The notes beneath the pieces were generated by a model, which ran no database searches, was not told where the DNA came from, and saw nothing but the letters and a program-made list of their open reading frames with translations. A program made the translations under genes and the position numbers. Shown in pieces: positions 22,884 to 30,118 of a stretch of DNA of 42,422 bases; position 1 is the stretch's first letter, and each line of letters begins with the position of its first letter. The stretch is from assembly GCA_903879915.1 (NCBI GenBank), contig CAIRNJ010000033.1:1-42422 (forward strand), read 5' to 3'. The DNA is from an uncultured Elusimicrobia bacterium (GTDB lineage Bacteria; Elusimicrobiota; Elusimicrobia; Elusimicrobiales; UBA9959).

Positions 22884-22889
22884 TTGAAC

Positions 22890-24473
22890 ATGGCCCAACC
22901 TGTTTTCGCGGCGTTCCTGCCGCTCACAGCAGATAAGTTGACCCGCAGAATTTCCCTCGCCGCGCTTGGCTGCCTTGTAGCATGCCAGCTCTCGGCGCCG
23001 GCCGCTGGGGCGGGTTCTTCCCCGACCCTCGAAGCCCTGGAACTCTACATGCAGGGTCCGGACATGGCCGGCCCCGTATTCGACGGCTCGGCCCGGTACT
23101 CCGCCGCAGGGCTGGTCCCGGCCGCCCCAGTTGTCCCTTTCTCCGGGCAGGGCCCGGCAGGCGGCCCCGCCGCCGGCGCGCCCGGCGCCATACCCCCGGC
23201 GTCCGCCCCACTCTTATCCGAAGTTCCGGCGCCCGCTGCGGCGCAGCCCGAACAAATAGCCCCGGCCACTCTTCAAGCCAGGGAACTCGCCTTCGCCGCC
23301 ATAAGGAAAGACACTTTTTCAGTCGAAGTGCCGGGACAGTCCGCCCCCAGGGAGGTGGTAACGGCAGGGAGCGACCATTTCAAGACCTTGTGGACGCGTG
23401 ACGCCTGCTTCAGCATGTACGGCCTGGTAGGCGACGAGCGCGGGCGCAAGATAATGAAGGACACCCTGCAGACTTTCTTTGACCGCGCCAGCAGGGAAGG
23501 GCAGCTCCCGCGCCGCATGGGCGACCATACGAACATAGAACTTGTGGCCTATTCTGTTTTCGGGCTCAAAACCCCCGATCTGAAGGAACTGGCGCCCGTC
23601 GAGTACGACAACGAGCTAAAGGTGGCGCAGCTGGACTGCACAGCTCTCCCCGTAATACAGGCGTACGAGTATTATAAAGCCACCGGTGACATCGAATTCA
23701 TCCGGAAGAATTATTACACCCTCCGCCGGGCCGCGGCCTGGCTGGCCCGCAGAACGGACGGGGGACTGATAGACCAGCCCGGCAGCGCGGACTGGAAGGA
23801 CGTCATGCGCAGGAGCGGGAAAGTGGCGTACACGAACATGCTGCTCTACAAGGCTTTCGATTCCATGGCCCTCCTCGCCGAAGCCATGAACGACAGTTCG
23901 GCGGCGGCGGAGTGCAGGGGCCTGGCGGAAACCACCAGGACCGCGATAAACAAAGAGATCTGGAACGACAAGACCGGCTATTACAGGGACAGCAACGAGG
24001 CCCCCGAGGCTTTTTCGGCCGACGGCAATATCCTGGCCGTGATCTTCGGCGTGGCGGACAAGGCCAAGACCGACAGTATAATGGCGAAGTTCGAATATTT
24101 CCTGAAAGCGGACCCGCTCCCTTTCCCGGCGCTGGAAGGCGATTATCCGGACAACAAGGTCCCTTTCTGGATGGGGCTGGCCGGCGTACGGCACTACCAC
24201 GACCGTTTCGTCTGGCCCTGGCAGGGCAACGTTTTCGCCGTGGCCGCCGTCAGGGCGGGCAGGACCGACCTGGCCGTTAAAGCCCTGAACAAAGTGGCCG
24301 CGCAGGCGGTGAAGGACGGGACTTTTTACGAGATATACAAATTAAAAAAAGGCGAGATGCGGCCTGTCCGCACGTTCATTTATAAGTCGGAGCCGGATTT
24401 CCTCTGGAGCTCCGGCACCTATCTCTGGGCCTACCGCGAGGTGACCCGGGCCCGGAGTTCTGCCGGGCAGTGA
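22890..24473 (+). CDS. Exported six-hairpin (alpha/alpha) glycosidase-like protein
   Basis: A 527-residue protein. A signal peptide lies at about 17-41 after a short charged lead. A low-complexity A/P/G-rich spacer extends to ~125. The rest looks like an (alpha/alpha)6 barrel glycoside hydrolase of the amylo-1,6-glucosidase/MGH1-like type: LWTRDACFSMYGL (168-180), ATGDIEFIRKNYYTLRRAAAWL, SADWKDVMRRSGKVAYTNMLLYKAFDSMALLAEAM, NKEIWNDKTGYYRD and FLWSSGTYLWAYREV. Candidate acid residues are D171 and the acidic positions of DWKD, but the exact family and substrate cannot be fixed. A TTG at 22884 is a possible alternative start. ATG 22890 is preferred because a -10 box lies 6 bases before it. No ribosome site is visible. 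Confidence 0.75.
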   Translation: MAQPVFAAFLPLTADKLTRRISLAALGCLVACQLSAPAAGAGSSPTLEALELYMQGPDMAGPVFDGSARYSAAGLVPAAPVVPFSGQGPAGGPAAGAPGAIPPASAPLLSEVPAPAAAQPEQIAPATLQARELAFAAIRKDTFSVEVPGQSAPREVVTAGSDHFKTLWTRDACFSMYGLVGDERGRKIMKDTLQTFFDRASREGQLPRRMGDHTNIELVAYSVFGLKTPDLKELAPVEYDNELKVAQLDCTALPVIQAYEYYKATGDIEFIRKNYYTLRRAAAWLARRTDGGLIDQPGSADWKDVMRRSGKVAYTNMLLYKAFDSMALLAEAMNDSSAAAECRGLAETTRTAINKEIWNDKTGYYRDSNEAPEAFSADGNILAVIFGVADKAKTDSIMAKFEYFLKADPLPFPALEGDYPDNKVPFWMGLAGVRHYHDRFVWPWQGNVFAVAAVRAGRTDLAVKALNKVAAQAVKDGTFYEIYKLKKGEMRPVRTFIYKSEPDFLWSSGTYLWAYREVTRARSSAGQ

Positions 24474-24527: not shown

Positions 24528-25448
24528 TCAGCGCCCTTCCCCAGCGGCAGCGCGTCTATTCACCAACTGCTCGTGCAGCTGGCAGGAGTTCTTATCGTTC
24601 AGCTCGCAGGCCGCGCCCAGCAGCCGCTCCGCCTCGGCGGGGTCACGCGGCACGCCCCGGCCTTCGGAATAGAGCATCCCCAGTACGGAGCAGGCCACCG
24701 CCACTTTAGCGCCGCAGGCCTTGCGGAAGAGCCCGACAGCGCGGAGAGGGTCGGCCGGCGCGGCCCTGCCTTCCAGGTATACGCTTCCCAGCAGGGAGCA
24801 GCCGAACATGTCTCCGGCGCTGCAGGCCTTTTCGTACAGCGCTATGCCGGCGGGCACGTCCTGCGCGGTGCCGTGGCCGAGCGTCTGCATGAAGCCCTGC
24901 GTGGTACAGGCCTCCGCCACCCCGCCGGCGCAGGCTTTGTTTATCAGGGAGAAGGCGCGCTCGTCGTCCTTCGCCACGCCGTGGCCCGCGTAATACCGCC
25001 CCCCCAGCCGCAGGCATTTGAACATGTCGCCGGCTTTGCAGCCCGCCCTGTCCTCGGCGGTTTCTTTGGCCAGCGCGGCGAGCTGATAGGTTTCGGCCGG
25101 CTTCTCCAGCAGCGCGCCCGGATCGAACGGGCGCAGGGGCACCAGCAGCCCGGCGGCCGGCGGCGCGAAGTTCTCCTCCGGGGGAACGCCCCGGGGCGGG
25201 GTAAGGCTTTCCGCCTGCACTCCGCCCGCGGCCAGCGGGGCCGTCCGTTCAGGCGCGCCGGGCGCGCCCTGGCCGGCGGGCCGGGCATCTTCCCGCGGCG
25301 GCGGCAGACCAGCCGGCAGGAATAAATAGAGGGCGAGCGCGCCCAGCAGCAGGCCCGCCGCCAGGCGCAGCCCCGGCGCGGCGCCCCGCGGCTCCTTCAG
25401 GCTGCCGCCGGCCGGCGGCGGCGCTCCGTATTGCGGATCGTTCTGCAT
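24528..25448 (-). CDS. Membrane-anchored Sel1-repeat protein (AAA+ operon, gene 6)
   Basis: A 306-residue protein. A short cytoplasmic N-terminus is followed by one transmembrane helix (about 27-46), a proline/alanine linker to ~115, then Sel1-like repeats to ~295. The repeats include KCLRLGGRYYAGHGVAKDDERAFSLINKAC, ACSVLGMLYSEGRGVPRDPAEAERLL and SCSLLGSVYLEGRAAPADPLRAVGLFRKAC-type units, with paired cysteines. Sel1 repeats bind proteins. The predicted topology puts them in the periplasm, where the cysteines could form disulfides. It is the last gene of the six-gene AAA+ operon, 43 bases after the soluble ATPase. A convergent gene ends 54 bases beyond it. Confidence 0.85.
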   Translation of the reverse strand: MQNDPQYGAPPPAGGSLKEPRGAAPGLRLAAGLLLGALALYLFLPAGLPPPREDARPAGQGAPGAPERTAPLAAGGVQAESLTPPRGVPPEENFAPPAAGLLVPLRPFDPGALLEKPAETYQLAALAKETAEDRAGCKAGDMFKCLRLGGRYYAGHGVAKDDERAFSLINKACAGGVAEACTTQGFMQTLGHGTAQDVPAGIALYEKACSAGDMFGCSLLGSVYLEGRAAPADPLRAVGLFRKACGAKVAVACSVLGMLYSEGRGVPRDPAEAERLLGAACELNDKNSCQLHEQLVNRRAAAGEGR

Positions 25449-25491
25449 AATTTTCGGCCGGCCGCGGCGCGCGGCGCGGCGGAGGCGGGCC

Positions 25492-26514
25492 TTAGCTGCC
25501 GGCCTGGGCCTGCTCCGGCTTTTCCGCGGGATAGCAGACTATCTTGCCGTCAGGGCCCAGGCGGAACGAGACGGCCTTCACTTTCCTGTCGCGCATCGCC
25601 ACCAGCTGCTCGGCGAAGAAATCGAAAAGTATGCGCTCCAGCTCGCGGATGCCGAAGCGGCTCACCTTCAGGTTAGCCTCCAGCGCCTTCAGCAGCAGCT
25701 CCGGCGCCACGAATTCCACGGTCATCCCGTAATCCTTGCCCAGCGCGGCTATCTTGAGCAGCGCTATCTCCGCCACTATCATCCCGGAGAGCGGCTTGAA
25801 CAGGTAAACCTTGTCGATGCGGCCCATGATCTCCGCCCGGAAGACGCCGGACTCGGAAAGCAGGGTCTTGATGGCGTTGAGGATCTCGCGGTAATCGGTC
25901 ATCCCCTCCGTGGCCTTGCCCACTTCGTCGGCCAGGGCGTTGCTGGTCAGCACCACGATGCTCTGCGTGAAATCCGCGGTGCGGCCGGTGCTCTGCTCGG
26001 TCAGGCGCCCGTCGCCCATCAGCTGCAGCAGCAGGTCGAACACCAGCGGGTGCGCCTTCTCTATCTCGTCGAAAAGGATCAGCCGGCGCGGGTTGGCCAT
26101 GATCGGGCGCGTCAGCTGGCCGCCGGATTCGGAGTCCTTGTAGCCCGAAGAGGAACCGGTCAGGCGGCTCTTGGCCATGTCCGGGTTGCTCAGTTCGGAG
26201 CAGTCGAAGCGGAGCATGTCCTTCGCGTCGCCGTAAAGGTATTCGGCCAGCACCTTGGCCAGCTCCGTCTTGCCGGTGCCGGTGGGGCCCAGCAGCAGCA
26301 GGCTGCAGATGGGGCGCGTGCGCTGCTGCTTCTCCCAGCTGAGCCGTATCACCCGGGCGACGTCGGAGATTATCTCGTCCTGGCCCTTGATGCGCGCCTG
26401 CAGGAATTCCAGCAGCAGCTTCTCGTCGACGGTGCGGCTCTTGCTCTCCAGCTTGGAGTCGCTGACCAGCGCGCGCAGCTTCTCCCAGTCCGTCATTTTG
26501 TTGAGGTCGCTCAT
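25492..26514 (-). CDS. Soluble ClpB-D2-like AAA+ ATPase (AAA+ operon, gene 5)
   Basis: A 340-residue single-ring AAA+ protein resembling the second ATPase domain of ClpA/ClpB. Walker A GPTGTGKT is at 76-83 and Walker B LILFDE at 145-150. Sensor 1 is VVLTSN (187-192), the arginine finger is R232 in FRAEIMGRIDKVYLF, and sensor 2 is R290 in FGIRELER. The pore-loop region SSSGYKDSESGGQLT keeps an aromatic residue (Y125), so protein threading is possible. The N-terminal domain and ClpP-binding loop of Clp unfoldases are absent. Upstream in-frame codons are arginine/glycine-rich shadow sequence; MSDLNKMTDW is the supported start, 11 bases after the beta-helix gene. All ATPase motifs look intact. 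It probably assembles with its membrane paralogue encoded at 27764-28870. Confidence 0.88.
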   Translation of the reverse strand: MSDLNKMTDWEKLRALVSDSKLESKSRTVDEKLLLEFLQARIKGQDEIISDVARVIRLSWEKQQRTRPICSLLLLGPTGTGKTELAKVLAEYLYGDAKDMLRFDCSELSNPDMAKSRLTGSSSGYKDSESGGQLTRPIMANPRRLILFDEIEKAHPLVFDLLLQLMGDGRLTEQSTGRTADFTQSIVVLTSNALADEVGKATEGMTDYREILNAIKTLLSESGVFRAEIMGRIDKVYLFKPLSGMIVAEIALLKIAALGKDYGMTVEFVAPELLLKALEANLKVSRFGIRELERILFDFFAEQLVAMRDRKVKAVSFRLGPDGKIVCYPAEKPEQAQAGS

Positions 26515-26525
26515 AATGTTCCCTT

Positions 26526-27767
26526 TTATTCCCCGGCTCCCGCGTCCTCTTCGTCCGCGGCCGCCGCGGCGGCGCGCTTTTTCGCGGCCGGGCGCTTTTC
26601 GCCGGGCACCAGCAGCCCGGAGTTGCCGTAACCGGTTATCAGGGCCTTGTCGCCCTCCAGCGGGCTCACCGCCACCGCGCCCAGCGTATTGTCGGCGAAC
26701 TTGCTGCCGCGCGCCTCCAGGGAGCCCGCGCCGGCGAAGCCTACGCCGCATTTATTGCGCGTCAAAGTTACTTTTTCCAGCACCAGCTTGCCGTTCTCCT
26801 CGATGTAAACGCCGCATTCGCCGTTGCCCGTCAGCTGCGACTTGGACACGCGGACCTCCGCGCCGGAACCTACCATTATGCCGGCGTAGCGGTTGCCGGA
26901 GATGGTGGTGCCGTTGACCCGGGCCCAGGCGCCGTCCGAAACCCTGAGGCCGGCGCCGCCGCCGCCGGAGATGTGACAGCCGTCCAGCTGCAGGTCGGCC
27001 AGGGAGTCCTGCACGCTGACGCCCAGCACGCTGCCGGTCATGGAAACCCCGGTGAGCTTCGCCTTGGATTTGCCGGCCACGGACAGCGCGGCGCCGGCCT
27101 CGAACTCGCAGTCAGACGCCTCCAGGTCGGCGTCCTGCACTTTCACGCCCTTGCCCGAGGATTTAACATTGACGTTGCGCAGCACCAGCGCGGCCCGCGT
27201 CACGGACAGCGCCCAGTAGTCCACCTGGCTGGCGTTGGCGATGGTGAGGTTCTCCATCACCATGCGGCCGCCGTCGATGGCGAACGTAGGATTCAAAGAA
27301 TTGGTCAGCTGCACCTCTTCCGGCGAGCTGCCGCCGCCGGTGATGGTCAGCGGCTTGGAGGTGAGCACGCTTACCTCGTAGGTACCGGGGCGCAGCACTA
27401 TGGTGTCGCCCTCGGCCGCGCGGGAGACCGCTTCGCCCAGCGACGTGCAGTTCACGCCGGGGCCGCCGTCGCCGCCCACCACCCAGCGGCCCGGCGCCGC
27501 GGGCGCGGCCGGCTTTCCGGCGGGAACTTCCTGCGCCCGCGCCGCGGCGGCCGCCTCCTGCGCCAGCTCCGGCAGGGCTTCCGCTAGCGGCGTCCCGCGG
27601 GCCTGCGCGGGCGCGGCGGCGGCAGGCAGCGCCGGCGCCGCCTGCGGCAGGGCCTGGACCGGACGCAGCATATAATGCAGCGAGAAGATGCCGGAAATTA
27701 TAAGCAGCAGGGCGAAGACCTGTATCCAGACGTCTTCCAGCACCAGCTGTTTGGGATCGGCGCTCAT
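26526..27767 (-). CDS. Membrane-anchored parallel beta-helix protein (AAA+ operon, gene 4)
   Basis: A 413-residue protein. A 13-residue N-terminus precedes one transmembrane helix (14-33). A proline/alanine/glutamine-rich linker runs to ~92. Residues 95-390 form a right-handed parallel beta-helix of the pectate-lyase/DUF1565 type. GEAVSRAAEGDTIVLRPGTYEVSVLTSKPLTITGGG is the typical entry, followed by many short V-x-V/L-x-x-(S/C)-x-(I/L)-(S/T)-G-N rungs such as VNGTTISGNRYAGIMVGSGAEVRVSKSQLTGN. There are no clear lyase residues, so a structural or ligand-binding role is likely. The tail is lysine/alanine/acid-rich. Its start overlaps the previous stop as ATGA, indicating translational coupling to the membrane ATPase. 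Confidence 0.87.
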   Translation of the reverse strand: MSADPKQLVLEDVWIQVFALLLIISGIFSLHYMLRPVQALPQAAPALPAAAAPAQARGTPLAEALPELAQEAAAAARAQEVPAGKPAAPAAPGRWVVGGDGGPGVNCTSLGEAVSRAAEGDTIVLRPGTYEVSVLTSKPLTITGGGSSPEEVQLTNSLNPTFAIDGGRMVMENLTIANASQVDYWALSVTRAALVLRNVNVKSSGKGVKVQDADLEASDCEFEAGAALSVAGKSKAKLTGVSMTGSVLGVSVQDSLADLQLDGCHISGGGGAGLRVSDGAWARVNGTTISGNRYAGIMVGSGAEVRVSKSQLTGNGECGVYIEENGKLVLEKVTLTRNKCGVGFAGAGSLEARGSKFADNTLGAVAVSPLEGDKALITGYGNSGLLVPGEKRPAAKKRAAAAAADEEDAGAGE

Positions 27768-28870
27768 ACGCTCACCGTCACTTCGCCGGTCTTCTGGTCC
27801 AGCTCCAGCCGCACCCGGGTGGCGCCGGTCCGGCGGGCTTCCTCTATCGAAGGGGTGGTTATTTCCCGTATCAGGCCGGCCAGCTGCCGCACGCCGTAGT
27901 CCTGGAACTCCACGTTGCGCCTGATGGCCTCCACCAGCACCTCGGGGGAAGTGTATTCTACTTCAATGCCGTACTGGCGCCAGTGCTTGGCTATCTGCAG
28001 GCAGGCCACCTCGGCTATCTCCACCGGCTTAAGCTGGTCCATCAGCAGGATATCCGTGAACCGTGCCAGCAGCGGCCGCTCGAAACCCTCGCGGGCCATA
28101 GCCTCGCGGGCGCGCCCGCTGCGCAGGGCGGGATCGGACGTCCCGCTCCAGATCGTGCGCAGGGCGTCCACCCCGCAGTTGCAGGTGGCGAAGAAAACGC
28201 AGGCGCCGAAATGCACTTTCTTGCCGGAACTTTTCTCATAGCACTGCCCGCAGTCCAGGATGTCGTAGAAGCAGTGCTGCACGTCCAGGTGCGCCTTTTC
28301 GAATTCGTCCAGGATCACGACCCTGTACGGGTTCTCCAGCACCGGGCGCGTCAGCGAGCCGCCTATCTCGTAGCCCTGGTAGCCCGGCGGCGGGCCGATC
28401 AGGGTGAACACGTCCTGCGCCGCCTTGTACTGGCTCATGGCCAGCAGCAGCGGCTCGCTGTCCTTGTACAGCGCCTTGGCCACCATCTCGGCCAGGAAGG
28501 TCTTGCCGGTGCCTGTGGGCCCGGGCAGCAGGAAAGCCCCCAGCACCTGGCCCGGCGCGGCCACGGCCAGTCCCTGCTGTATATGGTTCACGATATGGTC
28601 CGTAACGGCGTCATGGCCGCGCACGTTCTCCTTGATCCAGCCGGCATAGGGGGTGAACTGTTTGGCGCGCAGCAGCGCGAAGTCGATGGCGGCCGCGGCG
28701 TCGGTCTGTTTCTTTTTTTCCTGCAGGACCTGGTTGAGCCGTATGAAGAAGCCGGCAAGGCTGCCCACGAAAATTATCGGCATGCTGACCGGGAAAATGC
28801 CGTAGACGGAATACATGCCGGTAACTATGCCCAGCACTACCATCAGCATGAATAGCGGGTTCATTTTCAT
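27764..28870 (-). CDS. Membrane-anchored ClpB-D2-like AAA+ ATPase (AAA+ operon, gene 3)
   Basis: A 368-residue protein with two N-terminal transmembrane helices (about 5-22 and 25-42) followed by a cytoplasmic AAA+ module. Walker A GPTGTGKT is at 117-124, Walker B VVILDE at 184-189, sensor 1 FFATCN at 226-231, the arginine finger is near R265/R270 (FERPLLARFTDILL), and sensor 2 is R328 (YGVRQL). The pore-loop segment IGPPPGYQGYEIGGSLT (158-174) is close to ClpB D2 and keeps the threading tyrosine. A cysteine-rich insertion lies around 200-232. A ClpB-type ring tethered to the inner membrane is unusual; FtsH and the AAA proteases have a different AAA subclass and a protease domain, which is missing here. 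The start is 1 base after the previous stop. Confidence 0.88.
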   Translation of the reverse strand: MKMNPLFMLMVVLGIVTGMYSVYGIFPVSMPIIFVGSLAGFFIRLNQVLQEKKKQTDAAAAIDFALLRAKQFTPYAGWIKENVRGHDAVTDHIVNHIQQGLAVAAPGQVLGAFLLPGPTGTGKTFLAEMVAKALYKDSEPLLLAMSQYKAAQDVFTLIGPPPGYQGYEIGGSLTRPVLENPYRVVILDEFEKAHLDVQHCFYDILDCGQCYEKSSGKKVHFGACVFFATCNCGVDALRTIWSGTSDPALRSGRAREAMAREGFERPLLARFTDILLMDQLKPVEIAEVACLQIAKHWRQYGIEVEYTSPEVLVEAIRRNVEFQDYGVRQLAGLIREITTPSIEEARRTGATRVRLELDQKTGEVTVSV

Positions 28871-28871
28871 C

Positions 28872-29192
28872 TTAGTTCCCGGCCTGCGGCCCGGGCGCGG
28901 CGGGAGCTTCCGCGGCCGCCGGCTGAGCTGCCGGCGCGGCGGCGCGCTCGCGCATAAAAAGCGTTCCGGCCGCCGCGGCCAGCGCCAGCAATAAAGCGGC
29001 CAGCGCGTATACCCAGCGCGGGCGGGCGGGGCGGGAGAGGTCAGGCAGCGGCGTATAGGGCTCGCCCGGGCCCGACGGCCCCGGCCCCTTCCGCTCCTGC
29101 TTCCCGCCGAAGAACGGCGCGGGCGCCGGCGCCGGGGCGGCGGAGGTTTCGTTCTTCGGGGCGGCGGTCTCTTTTTCCGGTTCGGCGCTCAT
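28872..29192 (-). CDS. Small single-pass membrane protein (AAA+ operon, gene 2)
   Basis: A 106-residue protein I do not recognise. Residues 1-58 are proline-, glutamate- and glycine-rich and probably disordered in the cytoplasm. One transmembrane helix lies at 61-79. The C-terminal 25 residues are alanine/proline-rich. It starts one base after the previous stop and ends one base before the membrane AAA+ gene, so it is certainly part of the operon. It may link the ATPases to the membrane, but nothing shows this directly. Confidence 0.75.
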   Translation of the reverse strand: MSAEPEKETAAPKNETSAAPAPAPAPFFGGKQERKGPGPSGPGEPYTPLPDLSRPARPRWVYALAALLLALAAAAGTLFMRERAAAPAAQPAAAEAPAAPGPQAGN

Positions 29193-29193
29193 A

Positions 29194-30102
29194 TCAGTTC
29201 ATCACTTCGCTCAACCTGTAGGTTTCGAAAGTGCCGCTGTTGAACTCGGTGGAACTTTTAAGGCTCGTCTTCTCGCCCGGCCTCAGCGTGAAGGTCCAGG
29301 TTTCGCCGCCGCTGGTGACCACTTTCATCCCTATCGTTTTATTGGAGGTAAGGTTCGTATAGTCGTAGACGTACTTCCCCTCGCAGACGCCCGCGTATAC
29401 CGTGGAGATCTCGTGCTGCATCTTTCCCTCGCCGCCCTGAAGCGTGGCGCGCGTCCTGGCGCCCGTAACGGCGCCTTTATCGCAGGCGGTGCACGGCTGC
29501 CCGGCGGCCGCCGCCGCGGCAAGCCCGCGCGGAATGCCGGCAAACCCGCGCGCAACTCCGGCCTGGCCGCCCGCCGCCGGCTGCAGGCGCGGGGTAAGCC
29601 GGTCGGCGGCCGGCAGCACGGTACGGGCGGCAGCGGTCCGCTGAGCGGGTTCCGGGGCCCGGGCCGGCTGCAGGGGCTGCAGAGCGGAGACCTTCGGAAC
29701 GGCCGCGGAGTCGCCGGAGCTAAAAAAGGGCAGCGGGCTGGAAAAACTGTCGGGCGCGGGTTTAACCGTTTCCGCGGGCAGGCTTCCCGGCAGCACGAAC
29801 GAAGCCGGCTCGGGCGGCGCTTTGGCCAGTGGCCCCGGAACTACGACCTGCACCGCCGCCGGAGGCTCCGGCGCGGCCTGCTGCGCCGCCTGCTGCGCCT
29901 GGCGCGGTTCCCCCTTAAAGACCAGGGCTGCCGCCAGCCCGGCCGTCAGGATAGCCGCCGCGGCCGCCAGGCCTATGCGGCTGCCGCTCTTTTCACCGGC
30001 CGGGCGCCGGCCGCTGCCCGGCCCGGCAGGCATGGGGGCGCGTTCGCCGGGGGACGGCGCAGGCATCGGCTGCATCTCTGGTCTTTCGCTCTCGGGTTCC
30101 AT
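29194..30102 (-). CDS. Membrane-anchored protein with unrecognised C-terminal domain (AAA+ operon, gene 1)
   Basis: A 302-residue protein. The cytoplasmic N-terminus (1-42) is proline-rich. One transmembrane helix lies at 43-62. A long proline/alanine linker (63-200) follows. The only ordered part is the C-terminal ~95 residues, beginning GQPCTACDKG (C204, C207) and containing C240 in YAGVCEGKYVYDYTN. It then has strand-like stretches (TIGMKVVTSGGETWTFTLRPGEKTSLKS), suggesting a small beta domain in the periplasm. I do not recognise the family. It is the first gene of the six-gene operon, with TATAAT 10 bases before the ATG and no ribosome site. Confidence 0.75.
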   Translation of the reverse strand: MEPESERPEMQPMPAPSPGERAPMPAGPGSGRRPAGEKSGSRIGLAAAAAILTAGLAAALVFKGEPRQAQQAAQQAAPEPPAAVQVVVPGPLAKAPPEPASFVLPGSLPAETVKPAPDSFSSPLPFFSSGDSAAVPKVSALQPLQPARAPEPAQRTAAARTVLPAADRLTPRLQPAAGGQAGVARGFAGIPRGLAAAAAAGQPCTACDKGAVTGARTRATLQGGEGKMQHEISTVYAGVCEGKYVYDYTNLTSNKTIGMKVVTSGGETWTFTLRPGEKTSLKSSTEFNSGTFETYRLSEVMN

Positions 30103-30112
30103 TTGTCTGTTT

Positions 30113-30118
30113 ATTATA
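30113..30118 (-). promoter_or_regulatory. -10 box of the AAA+ membrane operon
   Basis: GTTTG-TATAAT lies 10 bases before the ATG at 30102, within the 50-base gap after the amylase gene. The bases upstream are GC-rich with no -35 box. A near-leaderless message is likely, and it separates this operon from prfB/amylase. Confidence 0.55.

Follow-up and report, generated by a model that had tools for sequence, protein, structure and literature searches.

A split pair of Clp-D2-type AAA+ ATPases co-inherited with a membrane-tethered beta-helix protein in Elusimicrobiota: a possible trans-membrane machine

The current study describes a gene cassette of Elusimicrobiota that encodes two Clp-type AAA+ ATPases together with a membrane-tethered beta-helix protein and several other single-pass proteins. 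The window, i.e. the entire stretch of 42,422 nucleotides (nt) under analysis, is contig CAIRNJ010000033.1 of an Elusimicrobiota metagenome-assembled genome having JAPLKJ010000291 as its near-identical sister, and it carries six closely packed minus-strand genes between positions 30102 and 24528, termed here g1 to g6 (Table 1). An initial annotation had described these as an operon with short or ATGA junctions, and all of its open reading frames (ORFs) and gaps were confirmed, the junctions from g1 through g6 measuring +1, +1, -4 (ATGA), +11 and +43 nt. The start of g5 lies at 26514 (MSDLNKMTDW) and not at 26751 as in the ORF list. Pfam recognizes AAA_2 in g3 (8e-29) and g5 (8e-38), Beta_helix in g4 (1e-17) and Sel1 in g6 (4e-21); g1, g2 and a fusion protein that replaces both of them in the family designated f15 match no family in Pfam, NCBIfam or PADLOC. 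The membrane and periplasm topology proposed at the outset was borne out by hydropathy, which predicts one transmembrane (TM) helix each in g1, g2, g4 and g6, two in g3 and none in g5. Because basic residues follow the second g3 helix, the g3 AAA+ module is predicted to be cytosolic, and the TM and charge pattern together with ten invariant paired cysteines of g6 would place the modules of the cassette in the periplasm. Four proteins had been thought to share a common plan of cytosolic stub, single helix, linker and periplasmic module. This plan holds for three of them, but not for g2, whose periplasmic part is a short Pro/Ala tail and no module.

Table 1. Coordinates of the cassette genes and upstream element in the window.
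Feature	Coordinates	Strand	Length	Description
Promoter-like element TTAAGAGTTTGTATAATAA	30111..30129	-		TATAAT ends 10 nt before the g1 start
g1	29194..30102	-	302 aa	Single-pass, TM 43-61; cytosolic tail with P-M-P; long Pro/Ala linker
g2	28872..29192	-	106 aa	One TM helix (61-79); cytosolic tail with PGE-YTP[LM]P; short Pro/Ala periplasmic tail
g3	27764..28870	-	368 aa	Two N-terminal TM helices followed by a single Clp-D2-type AAA_2 module
g4	26526..27767	-	413 aa	Single-pass parallel beta-helix protein; TM 13-31; beta-helix ~93-390
g5	25492..26514	-	340 aa	Soluble single AAA_2 (Clp-D2-type) ATPase
g6	24528..25448	-	306 aa	Single-pass; cysteine-rich Sel1 repeats; cytosolic Y-x-x-P-P motif

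When profiles of g3, g4 and g5 are run over 341 Elusimicrobiota genomes, it is evident that all three recover the same 25 genomes, which belong to nine genera and four families of a single class. In one of these, genome G181, the g3 match is a piece at a contig end, and the few additional g4 matches are weak and involve very long frames. All complete cassettes have the order g3-g4-g5, in most cases with a single-pass protein ahead, and the only exception is a second copy in genome G207 (L069), in which g3-g4 is found without g5. A secreted ClpP-like protease (L069:2967-4439, plus strand; Pfam CLP_protease 3e-20, with a signal peptide) is encoded 265 bp upstream of this g3-g4 pair. In eight sister genomes, g1-g5 follow the order of the window and g6 is present in most, one contig stopping before g6 and another giving only a partial g6 match. 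Since the order recurs in the eight sister genomes and the g3-g4-g5 core recurs across the class, it cannot be attributed to chance. The invariant core of the cassette is g3-g4-g5, which is inherited as a unit. The expectation that all six genes are conserved together must consequently be narrowed to these three, as g1, g2 and g6 are replaceable single-pass modules and the six do not form a fixed set. Outside Elusimicrobiota, we sampled plasmid, phage and viral collections and added a pattern scan able to pick up close relatives. The plasmids and phages (tblastn) and the viral contigs (profile) yielded solely ClpB/ClpC/TssH-type or weak partial AAA matches, and the cassette has so far been found only in some Elusimicrobiota. 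Clp-like matches at L082-L084 were considered as further relatives and rejected as ClpC-type genes or fragments.

The two ATPases were compared by aligning 25 g3, 25 g5 and 30 Clp/TssH modules residue by residue. All g5 sequences keep the Walker A Lys, Walker B DE, sensor 1 Asn, arginine finger and sensor 2 Arg without exception, and so do the g3 sequences at every site that they cover; the arginine finger, for example, is kept in 24 of the 24 g3 having the site and in 25/25 g5. Judged from their sequences, both proteins should be able to hydrolyze ATP and to form rings. In neither protein does a ClpP-loop tripeptide ([LIV]-G-[FLY]) occur in the stretch from sensor 1 to the arginine finger, a protease domain is absent from both, and each contains a single AAA_2 whose matches to ClpB models are limited to their D2 portion. 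The initial annotation was accordingly right in describing two catalytically complete ATPases lacking both protease and ClpP loop. Its claim that both keep a pore-loop tyrosine is correct for the window, including the g3 of its closest relatives, but does not extend to the family: the pore-loop aromatic is Y/F in 25/25 g5 and 30/30 Clp modules, whereas it is Y in only 10/25 g3, the remaining 15 having Q, H, V, A or a deletion at this position. The classical threading residue is kept throughout by g5 alone, and g3 and g5 are not equivalent, since g3 mostly lacks this aromatic. The N-terminal segment of g5 is conserved as well (M-T-D-W-x-K-L). In a tree rooted on Clp/TssH sequences, g3 groups with g5 in a single clade (support 0.998) apart from ClpB/ClpC/TssH, within which g3 and g5 are each monophyletic (support 1.0 and 0.957, respectively). 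Furthermore, the divergences of g3 and g5 agree (r 0.92 for 10 representatives), with 0 of 10,000 permutations reaching as high a value.

The best PDB sequence relatives of both ATPases are the second AAA+ modules (D2) of ClpB/Hsp104 and ClpC, with which they share the AAA_2 fold, Walker A/B, sensor 1, arginine finger and sensor 2. Unlike these proteins, g3 and g5 have one AAA+ module without N-domain, D1 or middle domain, constitute a clade of their own, are encoded with periplasmic proteins and, in the case of g3, carry two TM helices. The missing ClpP-binding loop also separates them from ClpA, ClpC and ClpX. Neither attains the cut-off of any Clp equivalog in NCBIfam; g3 scores slightly best against the TssH model TIGR03345, with 141 bits versus a cut-off of 885. 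TssH/ClpV resembles the arrangement proposed below in being an AAA+ protein at a trans-envelope machine, but g3 has neither its N-domain nor its D1, and no tss genes were recognized within the cassettes or in those flanks that were inspected. As both ATPases are recognizable Clp D2 modules, they might be viewed as ordinary ClpB/ClpV-type chaperone genes that are chance neighbors of envelope genes. We consider this extremely improbable in light of their strict co-occurrence and order over four families, their separate clade, the conserved promoter element belonging to the cassette and their single AAA+ module of 340-368 aa proteins. It is less improbable, but still unlikely, that the cassette encodes a protease-free envelope quality-control unfoldase, with AAA+ rings that extract or refold single-pass proteins generally and periplasmic proteins that serve as substrate receptors. 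Such a role would suit Hsp100-type ATPases without ClpP loop or protease, one of which (g5) retains the pore aromatic, as well as partners that are mostly single-pass with flexible cytosolic tails, and a secreted ClpP-like protease does adjoin the related unit L069. However, a patchy presence in 25/341 genomes speaks against general housekeeping, and substrate-type proteins need not be locked into an operon.

Two other systems offer further parallels. In the eukaryotic Pex1/Pex6, two different AAA+ proteins cooperate at a membrane via a single-pass anchor, as g3 and g5 might, but these are type II double-module proteins that are anchored from outside and not by TM helices of their own. Torsins, which have the membrane-spanning partners LAP1/LULL1, are Clp-related, membrane-associated AAA+ proteins without an aromatic pore loop, and they also lack an arginine finger, which is supplied by the cofactor (PMC5425593). 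Most g3 similarly lack the aromatic pore loop (15/25, the other 10 keeping it), whereas g3 and g5 both keep their arginine finger and are predicted to be cytosolic, Torsins being lumenal.

The third core protein, g4, has an invariant D-x-W preceding its TM helix and resembles NosD (Pfam NosD 3e-8, NCBIfam 4e-10). Assembly of NosZ requires the ATPase pair NosFY plus NosD (PMC7558416). In NosDFY, a periplasmic parallel beta-helix is tied to a cytosolic ATPase, as g4 would be, with an ABC transporter there as opposed to two AAA+ ATPases here. This precedent, together with the similarity of g4 to NosD and three invariant cysteines in g1, would be compatible with a maturation function in which cytosolic ATP hydrolysis moves the tethered beta-helix so that a metal, cofactor or glycan is delivered or inserted in the periplasm, the g1 CxxC...C serving as a metal or redox site. 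Despite this, the NosD model gives g4 a score of only 38.8 bits versus a cut-off of 300, so g4 is no NosD by model score, and the likeness is one of general beta-helix similarity. Moreover, members of f15 either have no cysteine protein or have a Cys-free beta-sandwich in its place, and no client enzyme is found in the cassette. Such a NosDFY-like role is consequently improbable.

In contrast to the fixed core, the single-pass proteins other than g4 are replaceable and varied. Among 11 g1 homologues, C204, C207 (C204xxC207), C240, G266, E267 and P275 are invariant, and P23 and P25 are nearly so. The C-terminal domain of g1 is predicted to be all-beta, with a predicted local distance difference test (pLDDT) score of about 87-94 over residues 231-290. 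Residues ~230-302 have an immunoglobulin (Ig)-like beta-sandwich arrangement (best Z 7.0), which is generic and points to no specific PDB family; Foldseek searches with the models of g1 and the f15 fusion gave no match under 1e-3. In f15, g1 and g2 are both replaced by this one fusion, which combines a g2-like Y[TVI]PLP tail and a TM helix with a different, Cys-free beta-sandwich. The g6 protein has 10 Cys in five C-x7-C pairs with a 36-residue period (137/145, 173/181, 209/217, 245/253 and 281/289), all of which are invariant in 5 orthologues and, being paired, fit an oxidizing compartment. It is like the secreted Helicobacter proteins HcpC/HcpB (1ouv, E 3e-31; 1klx, E 2e-12) and shows the Sel1 repeats with paired Cys eight apart in each that characterize HcpB/HcpC-type proteins. 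It was encountered solely in the genus of the window, and in one sister genome a short g6 match (L011:11440-11613) is all that is left, the Sel1 gene there perhaps decaying or strongly diverged. Genome G230 has three g1-type single-pass proteins in a row (L065:11115-13541), two of which are encoded divergently to the cassette, and this suggests duplication of a periplasmic module. Within the genus, identity is about 90% for the AAA+ parts and about 80% for the beta-helix, falling to 55-75% for the Sel1 and Ig-like parts and 27-66% for the linkers.

A proline-rich motif recurs in the cytosolic tails of these proteins. In g2, Y-T-P-[LM]-P is invariant (full motif PGE-YTP[LM]P), the f15 fusion has Y-[TVI]-P-L-P, g6 has Y-x-x-P-P, an accessory family adjoining some f15 copies has Y-T-[SA]-P-P, and P-[MLV]-P is nearly invariant in the g1 tail. 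The motif mostly lies 9-14 residues before the TM helix and further away in some g6. Shuffled single tails match it in about 1-6% of cases each (p about 0.01-0.06). Presumably, it would serve the two ATPases as a handle or a point of docking. YTPLP was also considered as a genome-wide tag and rejected, as the window genome gave 10 matches versus 10 in the reversed control.

Based upon these features, we give roughly an even chance to the interpretation that the cassette encodes an AAA+ machine working across the inner membrane. In this machine, g5 would do the pulling, g3 would serve for anchoring and coupling, and the exchangeable single-pass proteins would transmit the action to the periplasmic modules. 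Firstly, g3 is predicted to be a ring-forming AAA+ subunit anchored in the inner membrane by its helical hairpin, and g3 and g5 would form stacked or mixed hexameric rings on the cytosolic face. Secondly, g5, with its pore-loop aromatic, would pull or thread, leaving g3, which is mostly without it, to anchor, couple or regulate. ATP cycles would act upon the short cytosolic tails, with their Y-x-x-[LMP]-P or x-P-[LMV]-P motifs close to the membrane, of g1, g2 and g6 or of the proteins replacing them, and the single-pass partners would be moved, assembled or extracted, with the force relayed to the beta-helix, the Ig-like Cys domain and the disulfide-type Sel1 repeats. The binding targets of the machine beyond the membrane would depend upon the interchangeable modules. 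Candidate roles for the cassette are envelope remodeling, a NosDFY-like maturation and a conflict system. This trans-membrane machine is favored because several observations converge upon it: 1) the core genes have identical genome sets and a fixed order, 2) the catalytic residues are invariant while the pore aromatic differs between g3 and g5, 3) g3 and g5 share a clade and matching divergence, 4) the AAA+ parts are the most conserved whereas linkers and modules diverge, 5) the TM and charge pattern and the paired g6 cysteines, which match those of secreted Hcp proteins, put the modules in the periplasm, and 6) four families of proteins share the tail motifs.

Certainly, a number of points weigh against the machine. 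Co-inheritance does not prove a complex, and the interactions are ones that we infer; the matching divergence of g3 and g5 is itself co-inheritance and not contact, being expected for any co-inherited pair. The shared tail motif was recognized after the fact and is hence suggestive only, and it is missing from some members. The L069 copy indicates that g5 may not always be needed, and other lineages do without g1, g2 and g6.

To our knowledge, only a small and well-catalogued number of bacterial AAA+ machines transmit force across the inner membrane to parts in the periplasm. As the initial annotation had supposed, no known family fits the system, and a literature search of open-licence papers found no description of the cassette. 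The novelty lies in the gene system, each single fold being already known: two Clp-D2-type ATPases with different pore loops, split from protease and D1 ring, are strictly co-inherited with a beta-helix protein. More tentatively, we put forward the possibility of an undescribed class of ATP-driven trans-membrane machine, in which a split Hsp100-type pair (a membrane-fixed, largely non-threading g3 and a soluble, threading g5) drives a membrane-tethered beta-helix, and which has spread among Elusimicrobiota families as a self-contained cassette whose periplasmic recognition modules are swapped via a common tail motif. If the machine operates as proposed above, nature would offer a system of two genes with which threading and anchoring in Hsp100 rings can be told apart, and a largely uncultured phylum would supply a new means of coupling ATP in the cytosol to the periplasm. 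Whatever the mechanism, a three-gene core in exactly the same 25 genomes constitutes a well-defined experimental target.

The cassette also appears to have its own boundaries. Upstream of g1, 8/9 related cassettes share the element TTTGTATAATA, its distance to the start codon being 10 nt in the window, and the sequence beyond it as well as the flanking genes are unrelated between cassettes. This TATAAT element is promoter-like and would make g1 near-leaderless while marking the upstream boundary of the cassette. In sister species, the cassette occupies different loci. In genome G008, for example, the window's neighbors TPR-amylase and tatD are close together with another gene between them, and the G008 cassette is located elsewhere. 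The cassette of G230, an f15 genome, is closer to the f1 and f14 copies (70-74% identity for g3 and 80% for g5) than to the other f15 copies (46-48% for g3 and 58-66% for g5, except for the odd L069 copy with a g3 identity of 54%), which points to transfer between families. IS630-type transposase pieces are found near two cassettes (L068:10063-10982 and L072:7177-7506).

Moved cassettes, a patchy distribution and a variable slot after g5 raise the question of a conflict or anti-phage system, i.e. a mobile ATPase core combined with a slot for exchangeable effectors, and AbiE or DUF1016 genes do occur near two copies, with a caspase gene near another. We nonetheless regard this as quite unlikely. 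In PADLOC, g3 and g5 obtained generic AAA matches only (PDC-M37B, DolB) and g1, g2, g4 and g6 obtained none; the PDC-M37B matches (70-93 bits) are weaker than those to ClpB itself. The inspected flanks are otherwise mostly housekeeping genes, and several f15 copies share one stable locus beside hemL-type and Bax-inhibitor-type genes.

The slot after g5 may hold a Sel1 protein, a UvrD/NERD-like helicase ORF, a caspase lipoprotein or a Ca-binding-like protein. The helicase ORF, in genome G151 (L010:11368-13017, plus strand), takes the place of g6 and starts 20 bp after g5; the same locus carries an AbiEi/AbiEii pair (L010:1768-3202, plus strand) about 3.5 kb upstream of g1. In genome G209, the gene directly following g5 on the same strand (L075:13562-14962, plus strand) encodes a protein that has a caspase domain (Peptidase_C14) and a lipoprotein-like signal. 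Several cassettes are neighbored by members of a recurring single-pass family (L068:8540-9985, L070:6381-7769, L073:9450-10613, L074:6591-7745 and L080:3698-5014), which is without a Pfam match and has an unrecognized, Asp/Gly-turn-rich C-terminal domain that appears calcium-binding-like by eye. Beside the cassette of the window, a Glucoamylase/GH15-like ORF (22884-24473, plus strand) is absent from the near-identical sister and is carried by one of the 32 genomes of the genus, that of the window itself.

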